Assembly: GCF_024707485.1 (NCBI RefSeq)
Contig: NZ_CP102602.1
Coordinates: forward strand, 1,736,001 to 1,800,000
Length of the DNA stretch: 64,000 bases
Direction of reading: 5' to 3'
DNA from: Thermococcus thermotolerans
GTDB taxonomy: Archaea > Methanobacteriota_B > Thermococci > Thermococcales > Thermococcaceae
Positions 14,052 to 21,615 of this stretch are shown here, one piece after another. The position numbers were made by a program, and so were the translations under genes. The first letter of the stretch is position 1; the number at the start of each line of letters is the position of its first letter. The notes under the pieces are model-generated. The model ran no database searches. It was not told where the DNA came from and saw nothing but the letters and a program-made list of their open reading frames with translations.

Positions 14052-14129
14052 TGGTGCGGTGGCCGGGATTTGAACCCGGGTTACCGGCTTGGGAGGCCGG
14101 TGTCCTAGACCAGGCTAGACTACCACCGC
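14052..14129 (-). tRNA. tRNA-Gly (CCC)
   Basis: The minus strand folds as a complete cloverleaf: acceptor GCGGTGG paired with CCACCGC, discriminator A, encoded CCA, anticodon stem CCGGC/GCCGG with loop CTCCCAA (anticodon CCC), and a T-arm GGGTTCAAATCCC. No intron. The 3' CCA overlaps a perfect 14-bp palindrome (14041-14054). Convergent with lrpA. Confidence 0.95.
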
Positions 14130-15512: not shown

Positions 15513-15679
15513 GTCACTCTCCACTTTAACATTTTAGGTTCATTGAGGGTTCGATCCGAGACTTTTTGGAAATCAAATACGTTGGTTACTTAATTCTGGT
15601 TTGTTACTGTACAACCGGCACTAGCTGTTTTTGCATTCACTAACTCAGGTGTATTTAACATAACTTTAAAACGTAAGAC

Positions 15680-15688
15680 TTATAAGGT
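15680..15688 (+). promoter_or_regulatory. Promoter of the seven-gene secretion/ABC operon
   Basis: ACTTATAAGG lies about 45 bp upstream of the ATG at 15729 in an AT-rich 215-bp spacer. It is the only good TATA box before the operon; downstream genes are joined by overlaps of 4 bp or gaps of 4 bp. Confidence 0.6.
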
Positions 15689-15728: not shown

Positions 15729-16100
15729 ATGAAGCGTAGGATACTGCTCGGAGTCCTCCTGGTTGGAGGACTGTTGATTGGCCTCGTGAACGCCGCAGGC
15801 AGCAACGCCTCCACCCAAAGCTGCTGGACGCCATGGGACCACAACAGCGACGTTAGGCAGTGGAGCGACAACGAATGGGTCTGGGCCGGCATACACGGGC
15901 AAGTACTCGTATGCAACGGCCAGTTCAAGATGGTCCTCACAGACACCGTCTACGGAACAGCCACAGCAAAGGGAATGGAATGGTATCAGCCAGAGCATAG
16001 AGTTACTTCTTCTTTTGCATATTACAAGGTAGTTTACAAGAGGTACTCTGAGCCATACAAAGACACTGCAATAGCATACCTACCTAATTACTGGAGGTGA
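15729..16100 (+). CDS. Small secreted protein heading the ABC operon
   Basis: A 123-residue precursor. The basic start MKRRILLGVLLVGGLLIG followed by LVNAAGS is a Sec signal peptide with probable cleavage after Ala22 or Ala23. The mature part of about 100 residues is Trp/Tyr-rich (eight Trp, nine Tyr) and has two cysteines (in QSCWTP and LVCNGQ) that could form a disulfide outside the cell. No membrane anchor. I recognise no family. It is first in an operon of two anchored paralogues, a PEGA protein and an ABC exporter, so it could be the exported or sensed molecule. Its last third has a lower GC content than the first part. The ribosome binding site is GGGGGTG, six bases before the ATG. Confidence 0.7.
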   Translation: MKRRILLGVLLVGGLLIGLVNAAGSNASTQSCWTPWDHNSDVRQWSDNEWVWAGIHGQVLVCNGQFKMVLTDTVYGTATAKGMEWYQPEHRVTSSFAYYKVVYKRYSEPYKDTAIAYLPNYWR

Positions 16101-16104
16101 ATTG

Positions 16105-17130
16105 ATGAAAAATATCTCTCTTTTATCTCTTTTTTTTATTATCCTCGAGCTTGCTGTATTATTGATTTCTCCAGTGTCGTCTGTTCATACCCTGTCCTTA
16201 GAGGGGGTTTATTTAAAATATGCCCTGCTAACTCCCGACAATCCCCAAGAATATGATGTTAATATCTTTGAGGTTTACCTATCCCAAATACCAAATCAAT
16301 CCCGGGATTTAATTTTAAAACGTCTAACTGGTACAGGTGCAGATGAGCTTGTATCCTTAGTGGTTCGGGGAAACGTATTTCTGACGTTCAGGATATTGGA
16401 TGTGCAAAATGAGACTGCACTTGTAAACACCACTCTCGAACTTAACGATGTCTGGATTTACAACAGATATTATCTAAAGAAGATTGTCATGTCCACGACC
16501 CTCACATTAGATCTTAGACGCATGGAGTACATAGATAACAACGGTTCAGTACTCGGAAGGCCAACTTTTCTTGTCTTTCCAGAGAATCTGCCCCTCAAAG
16601 GAAGTCTACTGGTAAATATGAGCCGTGTCGGGAAATTGGGTGCTGCAACCCAAGACATTCTCGTGGACAATGTATCTTATTCTTTGTGGGAGCATACAAA
16701 GTTAAACACATACTATCGCACTTTTGAACCCCCATATATCCACATATCCAGCTCACAGGTTCCTTTCTACTGGAAACTCAGTGACGGTTATTACTCAGCT
16801 ACAATTTGGAGTAACTACATCTATGATTTTGATACTGGGGTCTTGATAACAGGATCTTTTGATGTAACTCCAGAGTTGCTGGCCCTCGGAGTAATAAACG
16901 GCGATAGTTATGATTATTCAGCCGCCGAAAGGAATGAGAGGCTTAAGGATCGGGGCGGAACCCCCCATGGGCTCTGGAATCCTGGCTTCAACCTCTACGA
17001 TACTAACATTAAATTCCCTGAAACTTCTTCCACAGCAACCCCAAGAACAGGAATGAAGTACTTCTTCGCGGCTTCACTAGCGCTCTTGGTCATCGCTGCA
17101 GTCCTTAACTGGAGGTGGAGAAGGGAATGA
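16105..17130 (+). CDS. Secreted, C-terminally anchored protein of unknown function (paralogue 1)
   Basis: A 341-residue type I membrane protein. The signal peptide ends near SPVSSVHT, an extracellular domain of about 280 residues follows with many Asn-x-Ser/Thr sites, and a single C-terminal segment (YFFAASLALLVIAAVLNW) ends in the basic stop-transfer RWRRE. It is clearly paralogous to the next gene: GVYLKYA/GTYIKYA, DVNIFEVY/EVNIFMIW, FLTFRILDVQNETALV/YLTFEILNVTNETALV and GFNLYDTN are shared. Unlike its paralogue it is strikingly AT-rich, with many ATA, TTA and TTT codons. GGAGGTGA overlaps the stop of the previous gene and precedes the ATG at 16105. The family is not recognised. Confidence 0.75.
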   Translation: MKNISLLSLFFIILELAVLLISPVSSVHTLSLEGVYLKYALLTPDNPQEYDVNIFEVYLSQIPNQSRDLILKRLTGTGADELVSLVVRGNVFLTFRILDVQNETALVNTTLELNDVWIYNRYYLKKIVMSTTLTLDLRRMEYIDNNGSVLGRPTFLVFPENLPLKGSLLVNMSRVGKLGAATQDILVDNVSYSLWEHTKLNTYYRTFEPPYIHISSSQVPFYWKLSDGYYSATIWSNYIYDFDTGVLITGSFDVTPELLALGVINGDSYDYSAAERNERLKDRGGTPHGLWNPGFNLYDTNIKFPETSSTATPRTGMKYFFAASLALLVIAAVLNWRWRRE

Positions 17131-18161
17131 AGAAAACCACCATTGTTATCCTAGCACTCTTGGCAGTCTCAGCAACCACATCCCCAGTTTACTCGCTCCC
17201 ATATTGGTTCAAAGAAGGAACCTACATCAAATACGCAATGAAAATGCCTGAAAACCCTGAGAAAAATGAGGTAAACATCTTCATGATCTGGCCAAGACTC
17301 CTCCCGAAGGACACCTACAACAGAATTAAAAAGACCTCTAAAGAAGATGGCAGTCCTTTGGAGATTGACAACCGCACCCTGATATCTCTCTTCGTTACGG
17401 GCGATTCGTACCTGACTTTTGAAATCCTCAACGTCACCAACGAAACGGCTCTCGTGAGGGTTACGCTTGAAATGAACAACGTGAGTGTGAGGCCGGGTGA
17501 AATCATTCCCCGCTTGGTTCTTTCGAGAGTCCTCCGCTTAAACCTGAGCGATATGGTGTATTATGAGGAGGATGGTACCCCAATCGGGCCACCTACGTTC
17601 TTCATAAATCCTGCCAGCCCGCCGAAAAAGGGTGATTATCTCCTCACCCCGGCTTTTATGAAGAAGTATGACCTTAAGGGGGATGATATCGTCATAACTA
17701 ACGTCTCGTTCACGTGGATGGAGGACAAAATCCTTCACACCCACTACAGGGACTTTATCCCACCCTACCTGTTTGTTGAGAGCAGGGGGGCATACGTTAT
17801 TGATGATCTAACAAGAGGTGAGGGCCATACCATAATAACTGAGCTGATTTACGAACCGGACACGGGTGTTCTTATAGCAACGATTTTCACGGACATGACA
17901 TCAGAACTAACAAGTTTGGGGGTTATAGGAGCGATTGCTCTTGACAGGGTGAACTCACGGAAGCTTCACAAGCTCATCGATGAGGGCAAGGTGGATAAGG
18001 AGTGGTATGCTCAAGGTTTCAACCTCTACGACACCAACGTCAAGCTCCCTGACTATGGAAGCGGACGTTCACCTTCGACGCCGGTTAAGTACTTCTTCGT
18101 CCTCTCGCTCGTCGTTCTCGCTATGATAGCTTTGTGGACGGAAAGGAGGTGGAAGCGGTGA
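17127..18161 (+). CDS. Secreted, C-terminally anchored protein of unknown function (paralogue 2)
   Basis: A 344-residue protein with the same architecture as the gene before it: signal peptide ending at SPVYSLP, a glycosylatable ectodomain, a C-terminal hydrophobic helix (VKYFFVLSLVVLAMIALW) and a basic tail ERRWKR. Its codon use and GC content match the rest of the chromosome, in contrast to paralogue 1. The ATG (17127) overlaps the preceding TGA in ATGA, with GGAGGTGG eight bases upstream, so translation is coupled. The two ectodomains may form a heterodimer at the cell surface; this is inference. Confidence 0.75.
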   Translation: MKKTTIVILALLAVSATTSPVYSLPYWFKEGTYIKYAMKMPENPEKNEVNIFMIWPRLLPKDTYNRIKKTSKEDGSPLEIDNRTLISLFVTGDSYLTFEILNVTNETALVRVTLEMNNVSVRPGEIIPRLVLSRVLRLNLSDMVYYEEDGTPIGPPTFFINPASPPKKGDYLLTPAFMKKYDLKGDDIVITNVSFTWMEDKILHTHYRDFIPPYLFVESRGAYVIDDLTRGEGHTIITELIYEPDTGVLIATIFTDMTSELTSLGVIGAIALDRVNSRKLHKLIDEGKVDKEWYAQGFNLYDTNVKLPDYGSGRSPSTPVKYFFVLSLVVLAMIALWTERRWKR

Positions 18162-19747
18162 GGTGGAAGCTCATTTTCCTGGCGTTTTTGGTGGCCGGTC
18201 TGCTCGTTCCCCCGGCGTATTCAGCCGAGGAAAGCACGATGGAGAGGCCAGGCTACCTGTCCGTTGAGGCGCCCGGAACCGTGGCTGAGATAGTTGGGGT
18301 GGGCTCTTATGCCACTCCCGTTGGCCTGGTGCTCAAGCCGGGAAACTACACCGTCAGGATAACCGGAAACGTCACGGTGGTTGCCAGGGTTTCGGTGGTG
18401 GCCGAAAAGGCCACAATAATTCGCGTGAACCCCGCGGGGATTGCGGGGGCAGTTTCGGGGGAAGGGATAGTGTTGATAAGGGCAATCTTCAATGAGAGTG
18501 CCAACTACAGCCGGGAGAAGCTCAACCCGCCTTTCAATCCGTTTGCATTCCCGGGTGGGTGTGGAAGCAACTCCGGGTATCTCAACATATCGAACCCCTA
18601 CCCGATGGGCCTCGCAGTGCGGGGAAGGGACGAGGTGTACATAACCCTCAACGGAACCTTCATGCACATTGGAGACGATGACGGGAAACCCTGTATTTTC
18701 TACGTCGAAGTGTACTCAGGAGGAAGCGAACGGCAGGAGAGCGTCAGGAACGCCACCTATCTCGTCCCCTGGGCGCGGCTGGAGATAACCTCGGTTCCCG
18801 AGGGCCTAACGTTCTACATCAACGGAGGCCACAATAGATACATCTTCTACACCCCCATGGGCCTCTACGTTCCAGCGATCCCCCACGATGTCCACAACGC
18901 CACCGCCGTCGGTTACTATGGGACGATACGGATTCCGGTAATTCACAGGCTCGACACCCACGTCGTTGGAATCGCGGAGAACCACTACTTAATCGAAAGC
19001 GTCGTGAAGGTTGCTCCCAACGAAACCCGCCACATCAACGTGGACATGGAAAAGGTGAAGTCCGCGCTGACTGTGGAGAGGGAAGATTTGAGAGCGGTTT
19101 CCCTTAAAGTCGATTCAGAGCCGGGCAACGCTTCCATAGTGGTTACCGACGGGGTTCTAAGGGCCTTTGCCGTCACACCCACCACGATGTTCCTTCCTCC
19201 CGGGAACTACACGGTCATAGCTTCGAGGGGCAACCTCTCGGCTAAAGAATCAGTGGTTCTTACGGGGAGCGCGAGTGTTTTCCTGAAGCTCTCCCCTGCC
19301 AGCGCGACACTCAACCTCGTGACGTATCCGGGCAACGCGACGGTGCTCTTGAACGGCAAGGAGGTCAATGTCAAAAACCTCACCCTCAGCCCCGGGCGAT
19401 ACAACATCACCGTGAAGGCTCCCGGTTATCTCACGAAGAGCCTGGAGGTAATCCTGGCCCCTAACGAGTCAAAGGCAGTTGAAGTAAACCTGGAGAAGAA
19501 GCCCGCGGTGGAGGATCAGGAAATCGTCATCTCGCCCCCTTCGAGCGGAGCGGAGGACATGAAATCTGGGGAAATGGCTGAGACCGACGAGAAAGACACT
19601 TCCGACGACACTCAAACCCTCCCAGCGCCTTCCGTCGATGATGTTCCCAGTACATCGAGAAGGGACAGCGGCTCTCTGTGGATCAAGCTAGCCCTTTTGA
19701 CTGGAGTTGTCGCGGCCGTTTACCTGGCCCTGAGGGTGAGGAGGTGA
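18158..19747 (+). CDS. Surface-anchored PEGA-domain protein
   Basis: A 529-residue protein starting with GTG (GTGA overlap with the previous stop; GGAGGTGG upstream). Signal peptide to about residue 24 (PPAYSAEE). Beta-rich repeats follow: LEITSVPEGLTFYINGG (about 210), VSLKVDSEPGNASIVV (about 320) and ATLNLVTYPGNATVLLNGKEV (about 392). The last two are PEGA domains, with PPGNYTV and SPGRYNITV signatures. A low-complexity Glu/Asp/Ser/Pro linker (about 450-505) leads to a C-terminal transmembrane helix LWIKLALLTGVVAAVYLAL and LRVRR. PEGA domains commonly anchor or present surface proteins. It is followed by the ABC permease after 4 bp. Confidence 0.8.
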   Translation: MRWKLIFLAFLVAGLLVPPAYSAEESTMERPGYLSVEAPGTVAEIVGVGSYATPVGLVLKPGNYTVRITGNVTVVARVSVVAEKATIIRVNPAGIAGAVSGEGIVLIRAIFNESANYSREKLNPPFNPFAFPGGCGSNSGYLNISNPYPMGLAVRGRDEVYITLNGTFMHIGDDDGKPCIFYVEVYSGGSERQESVRNATYLVPWARLEITSVPEGLTFYINGGHNRYIFYTPMGLYVPAIPHDVHNATAVGYYGTIRIPVIHRLDTHVVGIAENHYLIESVVKVAPNETRHINVDMEKVKSALTVEREDLRAVSLKVDSEPGNASIVVTDGVLRAFAVTPTTMFLPPGNYTVIASRGNLSAKESVVLTGSASVFLKLSPASATLNLVTYPGNATVLLNGKEVNVKNLTLSPGRYNITVKAPGYLTKSLEVILAPNESKAVEVNLEKKPAVEDQEIVISPPSSGAEDMKSGEMAETDEKDTSDDTQTLPAPSVDDVPSTSRRDSGSLWIKLALLTGVVAAVYLALRVRR

Positions 19748-19751
19748 GGCA

Positions 19752-20522
19752 ATGCGGGCACAGATAATGTGGGAGCTTGAGGATCCCTACAACCTCATCG
19801 TCTTCATCTTTGGCTTCATCATGCTCGGCATCACCTTCTTTTCCGGCCTGACGAGCAACGATACCGTGTTCATGGTGGCCGGGCCGGAGGGCGTAATAGT
19901 TTCCGAATCGGCCAAGAACATTGGCCTCACCCTGCCAAGGCTGGGAGTCGAGGAGTACACGATCTTCGCGCTCACCGGAGCGTTGCTGGTCTCGCTGATG
20001 CTCAGGTACGATAGGGACACAAGGGTTGCCAGGAGCGTCTACAGCTTGCCCATCAGGAACCACTCGGTGGTCCTTTCGAAGGCACTCTCCGCGATGATAC
20101 TGCTATTCCTCGCCTCAATCCTACCGGCGTTCCTTGCTTTCATCTACATTCACGGGGACGTTCCCGAGCTGATCAGAAGGGCGCTCTTTGGAGAGGGCTT
20201 TTTAGCGGGCTATCTCCTGTACTGGGCTATGATGGTGCTCTACGTGGTGTCCATCTCGGCCCTGGTGGCTATGCTCTCCCCCAACACCTTCGCCTCCCTC
20301 CTCGGGAGCATCACACTCCTCTACGTGCCCATCGTGCTTAAACTGAGGAGCCTTCCTCCGGCGGTGATCGACAACGCGTTCTTCAAGGCATATACAGCTC
20401 AGTTTTACCCCTCCGACAGGATAGCGGCGTTTCTTGATGGTTCCTTCTACGTGGGGCTTCTCCTTCCGGTGGTGATGCTTGGAATGGCTCTCATAGTCAG
20501 CGAGTGGAGGGACGTCTCATGA
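19752..20522 (+). CDS. ABC-2 type transporter permease
   Basis: A 256-residue membrane protein with six hydrophobic segments. Motifs typical of ABC-2 permeases are RVARSVYSLPIRNHSVVLSKALSAMILLFLASILP (coupling helix and second helix) and a long C-terminal pair of helices ending LGMALIVSEWRDVS. Between helices 1 and 2 there is an unusual extracellular stretch (about 33-72). With the ATPase encoded two genes later it should export a peptide, lipid or glycan. GAGGTGAGG precedes the ATG; the following gene overlaps in ATGA. Confidence 0.85.
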   Translation: MRAQIMWELEDPYNLIVFIFGFIMLGITFFSGLTSNDTVFMVAGPEGVIVSESAKNIGLTLPRLGVEEYTIFALTGALLVSLMLRYDRDTRVARSVYSLPIRNHSVVLSKALSAMILLFLASILPAFLAFIYIHGDVPELIRRALFGEGFLAGYLLYWAMMVLYVVSISALVAMLSPNTFASLLGSITLLYVPIVLKLRSLPPAVIDNAFFKAYTAQFYPSDRIAAFLDGSFYVGLLLPVVMLGMALIVSEWRDVS

Positions 20523-20956
20523 GGCTCCTGAAGGCGGTGCTGCTTTCCATAGTCATCATGACCGTTCTGGTGTTCCCGATAGAGAAGAACGCGCTGACCC
20601 AGCCGATTTCCGAGGTCGTTCTCATGGGGCAGGGAATCATCGTGCCCTCCTCGGGAATGGTCATGCTCAGCTCCAGCGCCGACGAGGGAACCGAATACGC
20701 CATCAGGGTCTTTGATCCGGAAAGCGGAAGGGCGGTCCTTGAGAGAAACGTGAGCGGAAGCTTCAGGGGCAGGGTTATGCTGGAGCATTCCGGCCCCTAC
20801 TACTTCTCGGTTCAGACCATGACACCAGTAACAATGGCGGTGAGGGTCATAAACAGATACCCATCGGTAATGGTGCTCAACATCAGGTACGGCCTTGGTG
20901 GAGTGAGCGCCCTTATTCTGGCGGCGATCCTGCTCGTGGAGGGGAGGAAAAGATGA
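20519..20956 (+). CDS. Small two-helix membrane protein within the ABC operon
   Basis: A 145-residue protein with an N-terminal hydrophobic helix (LLKAVLLSIVIMTVLVFPI), an extracellular beta-rich domain of about 90 residues, a second helix (VSALILAAILLVE) and a basic tail GRKR. The ectodomain (GIIVPSSGMVMLSSSADEGTEYAIRVFD...SGPYYFSVQTM) reads as a small beta-sandwich. Family not recognised. ATGA overlaps on both sides couple it to the permease and ATPase, suggesting a fixed subunit of that transporter. Confidence 0.75.
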   Translation: MRLLKAVLLSIVIMTVLVFPIEKNALTQPISEVVLMGQGIIVPSSGMVMLSSSADEGTEYAIRVFDPESGRAVLERNVSGSFRGRVMLEHSGPYYFSVQTMTPVTMAVRVINRYPSVMVLNIRYGLGGVSALILAAILLVEGRKR

Positions 20957-21615
20957 TAACCGCGAGAAACCTCACCAAGCGCTTCGGCAGGCTGGTGGCG
21001 CTGGATTCAATAAACTTAGATATTGACGAAGGACTAACGCTGATACTAGGCCCCAATGGCGGTGGAAAGAGCACCTTCCTGAACCTCTGCTCCGGCCTCT
21101 ACAGGCCGAGCGAGGGAGAGATCAGGGTCCTGGGGGAGAACCCCTGGAGCAACGACGAACTGAGGAAAAGGATAGGCGTCTCCTTCGACCCACCGGCCCT
21201 TCCGAAGCACAGGACGGCCAGGGAATGGCTCAACTACCTGGCCCAGGTCAAGGGACTGGGAGAGAGCGAGGTAAGGGAAGCCGCGGAGCTTTTCTCCGCG
21301 GTGAATTACCTCGACAGGAAGATGGGGGAGTACTCTGCTGGAATGCTCAAGAGGATCAGCCTCACCCAGGCGTTCCTCGGGAGGCCTGAGCTGGTGCTCC
21401 TCGACGAGCCCCTGGCTAACCTGGATCTTGAGGGCATAAAGGAAGTGGCGAAAGTAATCGGGGAGCAGGCCAAGGAAGGAACCAACATGGTCGTGGTGTC
21501 CCACATCTGGCGCCCCCTGGTGGAGTTCGCGGATAGAATAGTTGTGATAGCAGCGGGAAAGGTTGCGCTGACGGGAATCCCGGAGGAGGTGGTGCCAAAA
21601 ATCGAGGAGATTTAA
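20953..21615 (+). CDS. ABC transporter ATP-binding protein
   Basis: A 220-residue nucleotide-binding subunit. Walker A is GPNGGGKST (about 33-41), the Q-loop region is IGVSFDPPALPKHR, the signature motif is the variant YSAGMLKR, Walker B plus D-loop is LVLLDEPLANLDLEG, and the H-loop is VVVSHIW. It pairs with the 19752 permease; both are short and of the exporter type. The final 4 bp overlap the convergent DUF2103-like gene. This ends the operon. Confidence 0.93.
   Translation: MITARNLTKRFGRLVALDSINLDIDEGLTLILGPNGGGKSTFLNLCSGLYRPSEGEIRVLGENPWSNDELRKRIGVSFDPPALPKHRTAREWLNYLAQVKGLGESEVREAAELFSAVNYLDRKMGEYSAGMLKRISLTQAFLGRPELVLLDEPLANLDLEGIKEVAKVIGEQAKEGTNMVVVSHIWRPLVEFADRIVVIAAGKVALTGIPEEVVPKIEEI

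Follow-up and report, generated by a model that had tools for sequence, protein, structure and literature searches.

Lactococcin 972 loci (PF09683, e.g., that of plasmid pBL1) code for a small secreted product rich in tryptophan and tyrosine (Trp/Tyr), followed by one or more membrane proteins and an ATP-binding cassette (ABC) ATPase, which are thought to confer immunity (PMC4055356); at some of these loci, a small protein is encoded between the permease and the ATPase. A similar layout is found in a seven-gene operon of Thermococcus thermotolerans, located within a 64,000-nt stretch of contig NZ_CP102602.1. Positions given below without a locus or genome are those of this whole stretch, referred to as the window. 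The operon codes for a small secreted Trp/Tyr-rich protein (A), two anchored paralogues (B1 and B2), an anchored PEGA-domain protein, an ABC-2 type permease, a 145-aa protein, and an ABC ATPase. We found that it is built of two parts, a fixed chassis (the PEGA protein, the permease, the 145-aa protein, and the ATPase) and a swappable cassette (the last ~40 codons of A plus B), and we consider it a candidate polymorphic archaeocin system.

According to its sequence and an AlphaFold model, A, like lactococcin 972, is a small Sec-secreted, beta-rich peptide. Membership in the lactococcin 972 family, suggested by composition and gene order, was nevertheless rejected: PF09683 was not matched above cut-off in 21 genomes, and hhalign aligned the signal peptides only, with nothing found for the mature parts. 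Unlike at lactococcin 972 loci, DUF1430 is matched by neither B, the PEGA protein, nor the permease; a separate ABC-2 protein and anchored B and PEGA proteins are found instead. The ATPase is similar to TIGR03740, a lantibiotic-protection subunit, but scores 129.8 bits against a cut-off of 309.75; both it and the ABC-2 permease liken the operon to the LanFEG lantibiotic self-protection transporters, which have an anchored immunity protein, LanI, as a partner. In contrast to LanFEG, with its LanE and LanG permease genes, there is one permease gene per operon, there are an extra 145-aa protein and a PEGA protein, and there are no lanthipeptide genes. Matches of the ATPase in PADLOC were dismissed as generic ATPase similarity.

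Polymorphic toxin systems with downstream immunity genes (Zhang et al. 2012, PMC3482391) share with the operon an effector with a conserved N-part and an exchangeable C-part, a cognate gene directly downstream, and orphan partner genes. The operon differs in that the mature A is a single-domain product of about 100 aa without a known toxin domain, the partner is extracellular and anchored, and there is a dedicated ABC chassis. VARTIG modules (Makarova et al. 2021, PMC8416519) are, like the operon, membrane-associated systems of Thermococcales with linked partner genes, a secreted product, and C-terminal variability arising through recombination. They are centred on a large immunoglobulin (Ig)-domain protein (arCOG07710, mostly >500 aa) in recently acquired islands, and neither ABC transporters nor PEGA are mentioned in the text describing them (PMC8416519). 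The composition of the operon differs from this, its first gene coding for 123 aa with no Ig-family match, and assignment to VARTIG was rejected. No published description of the operon was found; a 2019 mBio survey of archaeal conflict systems (Makarova) lay outside the search, and an earlier mention is possible. Judged by sequence comparison, no part of the operon belongs to the families tested, except for the PEGA protein and the ABC ATPase. The features of the operon are as follows.

15668..15687, + strand: promoter element AAAACGTAAGACTTATAAGG (B recognition element (BRE)/TATA-like), conserved in relatives
15729..16100, + strand: A, 123-aa secreted Trp/Tyr-rich protein; signal peptide at about residues 1-22, invariant C32 and C62
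15729..15974, + strand: conserved N-half of A, codons 1-82, which diverges with the chassis
15975..16100, + strand: polymorphic C-half of A, codons 83-123, which belongs to the swappable cassette
16105..17130, + strand: B1, 341 aa; signal peptide, ectodomain, and C-terminal membrane helix; the partner of the window's A
17127..18161, + strand: B2, 344-aa paralogue of B; an orphan partner without an A of its own
18158..19747, + strand: anchored PEGA-domain protein, 529 aa, GTG start; chassis; PF08308 match
19752..20522, + strand: ABC-2 type permease, 256 aa; chassis; weak Pfam and NCBIfam ABC-2 matches
20519..20956, + strand: 145-aa two-helix protein with an extracytoplasmic beta domain (from alignment); chassis; present in most paralogous operons
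20953..21615, + strand: ABC ATPase, 220 aa; chassis; PF00005 match

The original prediction, made from the window alone, was that one promoter serves seven genes joined by short gaps or 4-bp overlaps. The seven open reading frames (ORFs) are indeed located where described, at 15729-21615 (+), and the junctions and the TATA-type promoter were confirmed. B1 follows A after a 4-bp gap, with a ribosome site, GGAGGTGA, at the end of A; 4-bp overlaps join B1 to B2, B2 to the PEGA gene (which has a GTG start), the permease gene to the 145-aa protein gene, and the latter to the ATPase gene, while PEGA and permease genes are separated by a 4-bp gap. B1 and B2 are paralogues, as had been proposed, and are 38% identical; B proteins have one C-terminal helix, then a short basic cytoplasmic tail. 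Clear family matches among the seven proteins are limited to the PEGA protein (PF08308, E=1.4e-14, 54.2 bits, above the cut-off of 20.8) and the ATPase (PF00005, E=4.6e-23), and these two earlier family calls stand; the permease call has weak ABC-2 matches only (E=0.09 in Pfam; drrC, 0.0014, in NCBIfam). A, B1, B2, and the 145-aa protein matched no Pfam or NCBIfam family.

Related loci were found through an ATPase search in 61 genomes, and most of them were fetched and mapped; at L014, L043/L061, and L059, an A gene was identified by six-frame search. The gene order of the window operon recurs in >10 related genomes, which is more than chance would produce, and the permease is 74-92% identical to those of relatives. 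The seven-gene operon is inherited as a block, as originally suggested; independent scattering of its genes was looked for and not seen. Operons of the family fall into three classes: class I, the window's type, is A-B(n)-PEGA-permease-145aa-ATPase; class II is A-B-permease-145aa-ATPase-PEGA; class III is B(n)-permease-145aa-ATPase, without PEGA. Four family operons are present in the window's genome (loci at 298 kb, 401 kb, and 454 kb, and the window). B was found in 61 of the 115 genomes of the phylum, and the matches listed are from Thermococcaceae only; the A profile matched 26 genomes, and patterns derived from A, used to scan 85,000 species, returned seven loci, all from Thermococcaceae. 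Several class III loci carry another small secreted gene before B, either A' (107-122 aa, in 24 of the 115 genomes) or A'' (about 145-150 aa), and profile comparison detected no homology among A, A', A'', and lactococcin 972. The promoter is conserved before the window-site type of A gene in class I, and copies of it also precede the internal A genes of genome G001, which has three A-B units, and both A genes of G104, which has two, each unit having its promoter; the element is weaker at loci L008, L013, L053, and L069.

To compare the divergence of the operon parts, Mantel correlations of amino-acid distances were calculated from 11 A-B pairs of class I. In alignments of A, the N-half is conserved and the C-half variable; mean distances are 0.17 (mature N-half) and 0.53 (C-half), compared to 0.52 (B) and 0.13 (permease). 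The A C-half is strongly correlated with B (r=0.92, p about 5e-5) and not with the permease (r=0.08), whereas the A N-half follows the permease (r=0.76) and not B (r=0.04); between B and the permease, r=0.00. The coupling of the C-half to B was retained when 13 pairs were used (r=0.89) and when the commonest A type was removed (r=0.90, 8 pairs). The chassis proteins intercorrelate with one another (0.53-0.93; permease-ATPase, r=0.93; permease-PEGA, r=0.53), and none does so with B. The same pattern is seen in individual genomes. The C-half of A in G012 is identical to that of the third A in G001, and the corresponding B genes are 97% identical; the three G001 units, which have one permease in common, have C-halves that are 38-59% identical and B genes that are 34-53% identical. 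B1 of the window is of the same type as the B that follows A in G090 and G104 (0.72 identity), and the C-halves of those A proteins are 0.78-0.80 identical. In close relatives, DNA identity is mostly >0.9 as far as about nt 240 of A, beyond which it is about 0.4; this places the breakpoint near codon 80. Coupling to the A C-half is 0.77-0.95 along B, and drops to 0.2-0.5 in the last ~40 residues.

As a separate observation, these class I B tails (~40 residues; near 17000-17130 in the window's B1 and 18040-18161 in B2) seem to track operon position: the last B before PEGA ends in P(D/E)YG and earlier B proteins in PETSS, as if a second recombination point were present.

The pattern is repeated in A', whose first ~66 residues are near-constant and whose remainder is variable up to a conserved end, ASAGWPYI. 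Over 17 pairs, the A' C-half correlates with B (r=0.88, p=2e-4; 0.90 once close relatives were thinned) and not with the permease (about 0); the A' N-half correlates with B at r=0.66, and the two halves are less sharply separated than those of A. An A'-B-A'-B array is present in G036 (L085), and A' is decayed in L091 and L094. Compared to polymorphic toxin systems, then, a cognate downstream gene co-inherited with the variable part was found in two unrelated families (r=0.92 and r=0.88, respectively) and orphan partner genes were found in arrays; a recognised toxin domain was not, both A and A' falling below family cut-offs.

Extra B genes are closest to the B partners of A types from other genomes. 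B2, for example, is 79% identical to the B located behind the MKEWYGG-type A of G076, and 69% to the B of G019. Orphan-B arrays without A also occur. Among loci at the window's site, A is deleted, truncated, or frameshifted in 5 of the 15 (L006, L007, L009, L054, and L056), while B persists; at a second site, A is also lost or broken in L010/L045 and L012. What remains of A in L007 and L009 carries the tail that would be predicted from the B type there. Conversely, a B gene lies directly behind all 32 intact A genes (32/32), one of these B genes, in a class II operon of G011, being broken. An in-frame TGA apparent in several B matches was dismissed as the terminal stop codon: the L019 frame is uninterrupted over 384 aa, and the same presumably applies to the remaining matches. 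Two A-like frames with stop codons, in another Thermococcaceae genus (G067:C1:985326-985663 and G071:C4:102458-102789), are decayed and lie away from any fetched operon.

The explanation that we consider best, and to which we give about an even chance, is that A is a polymorphic archaeocin, the B proteins are its anchored immunity proteins, and the ABC part is a protection pump. Antagonism is suggested because no intact A was seen without B, because B often occurs without A, and because there are arrays resembling sets of antidotes; of the three options in the original prediction (envelope assembly, peptide export, or an antagonism/immunity module with its exported product coming from the first gene), the last is best supported, given the co-inheritance of the A C-half with B, the common orphan B genes, and the repeated decay of A. 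A would be secreted by the Sec route, as its signal peptide indicates. The N-half, common to all variants, would be joined to a C-half that sets specificity. B, anchored outside the membrane, would meet A extracellularly and neutralise the cognate C-half. Strains would swap the C-half and B as a single cassette, recombination taking place in A's conserved 5' half and close to the 3' end of B, and extra B genes would be antidotes retained against other variants. The permease, the ATPase, the 145-aa protein, and the PEGA protein may act as a general protection pump usable with any B. The toxicity of A, its binding and neutralisation by B, and protection by the transporter are all predictions from sequence. 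By analogy with the self-protection transporters of bacteriocin producers, the most likely role of the ABC part would be protection of the membrane or envelope.

Alternatively, the transporter could be the exporter of A, in the manner of a bacteriocin exporter, and the operon and promoter common to A and the transporter would fit this. Yet ordinary Sec-type signal peptides can be recognised by eye at the N-termini of A, A', and most other first-gene products, neither a peptidase domain nor a double-glycine leader is present, and the transporter is kept in operons where A is broken or absent. We therefore regard this option as very improbable, and the ABC-export part of the earlier proposal is not upheld.

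The main rival to an archaeocin is kin recognition or signalling, with A as a secreted ligand (a pheromone or recognition tag), B as its cognate surface receptor, the chassis transmitting or clearing the signal, and the variants defining strains. Ligand-receptor pairs likewise swap as cassettes and diversify together, and polymorphic self/non-self modules are known in Thermococcales (VARTIG, PMC8416519). We nevertheless consider this unlikely, though compatible with all of the results: B has no signalling domain, only a single C-terminal helix and a short basic tail, no regulator is encoded in the operon, and orphan-B arrays without A better fit retained antidotes than receptors without ligands.

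Structural models were also compared with known folds. A is predicted to be all-beta, with six strands and a mean predicted local distance difference test (pLDDT) score of 78.6, reaching about 90 over residues 50-118. Its best match in the PDB was Zea/lmo2686 (4k15), a secreted hexameric RNA-binding protein (PMC6907008); at E=0.03, a probability of up to 0.97, and a template modelling (TM) score of up to 0.40, the match was too weak and was not used. The B2 model has a pLDDT of 88.4 and a predicted TM score (pTM) of 0.82. The best PDB matches of B, to the lipid-binding LmcA and then to hot-dog folds, were very weak (E 0.025, probability 0.33) and were likewise not used. They are what could be cited, together with the existence of operons without a secreted gene, for a role in envelope assembly or lipid/glycan export, in which the ABC transporter and B, as a possible hydrophobic-ligand fold, would move a lipid or glycan, and A would be accessory. 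This is improbable in our view, since biosynthetic enzymes were found in none of the mapped operons and joint swapping of the C-half and B beside a constant transporter would be left unexplained; nothing specifically favours the envelope-assembly machine that had been offered as one possibility.

It is also improbable that A and B form a surface complex, assembled by the ABC transporter, that evades viruses or vesicles through variation of its exposed parts. The extracellular parts do change fast beside a conserved transporter, and PEGA proteins are surface proteins. Diversification under virus pressure does not, however, predict a B of matching type behind every intact A, or B persisting without A, and a comparison of A with viral structures gave no fold match with E below 0.1.

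Several results weigh against the archaeocin reading. Because A and B are neighbours, their co-inheritance indicates a swapped block and not by itself physical binding; linkage is what makes the C-half and B move jointly. The ratio of nonsynonymous to synonymous substitutions (dN/dS) is above 1 for no gene. Searches of A and A' against toxin families gave nothing above cut-off, the closest being sub-threshold similarity of A' to Bacterial toxin 47 (Ntox47, Pfam; E=0.005-0.0065) in 3 of 20 members, e.g., L031:8091-8411. The class II operon of G011 combines an intact A with a broken B and a broken permease gene, which fits immunity poorly unless another B protects; L013, also of G011, has its A, B, PEGA, and chassis genes intact. 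Permease genes are also broken at L006, L027, L036, and L047. Finally, a recognisable secreted gene is missing from several members of the wider operon family, and the transporter may accordingly serve some basic function by itself.

Some loci depart from the common architectures. L053 (G082) is expanded, with B and PEGA multiplied together (A-B-PEGA-B-PEGA-B-PEGA-B-B-PEGA-permease-145aa-ATPase). In L033, L037, and L072, B-permease-145aa units stand in tandem; the first unit has no ATPase to itself, and a small secreted gene was not found ahead of the units. Between the two A-B units of G104, a block of minus-strand ORFs (L058:8201-11100) may be an insertion that split the array. Directly 3' of the operon, a ~430-aa ORF at L004:7101-8402 (beginning MKRSITVKLQPSKEQEKALFELAQ) and L058:16572-17864 resembles TnpB of the IS200/IS605 type. 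A tRNA-Gly (CCC) gene lies at 14052-14129 (-) of the window, 1.5 kb upstream of the operon, in a neighbourhood that recurs in relatives. At the window's site in G007, the last ~77 codons of the ATPase stand alone between the same neighbours (L020:10013-10234), the entire operon having apparently been deleted. In Thermococcus barophilus, a PEGA-domain protein, TERMP_00292 (54 kDa), was detected in the secretome (PMC10667668, Table 2).

Weak matches to the B profile were obtained in another archaeal phylum, in 14 of 200 genomes (E 6e-11 to 7e-4). At all seven loci opened there (7/7), genes for an ATPase and a permease of the ABC-2-like kind lie alongside B, in most cases together with one for a 145-aa-like protein. 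In 5 of the 7 (L095, L096, L097, L098, and L100) a small, N-terminally hydrophobic protein is encoded directly before B; these five proteins are mutually unrelated in sequence and matched no Pfam or NCBIfam family. On these similarities, we conclude that distant versions of the operon are present in a second archaeal phylum. With somewhat less than even confidence, we propose a new class of archaeal antagonism systems, in which small unrelated secreted proteins, each with an anchored B-family partner and one type of ABC chassis, would be deployed in Thermococcaceae and the second phylum, and in which specificity, in Thermococcaceae, would be renewed by swaps of half an effector gene together with the antidote.

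To our knowledge, there is almost no description of antagonism by peptides or proteins among hyperthermophilic archaea. A half-variable secreted protein and a co-exchanged anchored partner beside a fixed ABC transporter are what one would expect to see if the two were weapon and antidote, or if they served as a pair in self-recognition. The types and pairings of A and B genes can be read from their sequences, which allows predictions of who is protected against whom, and the B profile, combined with ABC neighbours, provides a handle for finding unrelated secreted products across archaea. Should B prove to be a receptor, the operon would represent a rare case of an archaeal recognition system defined by sequence.

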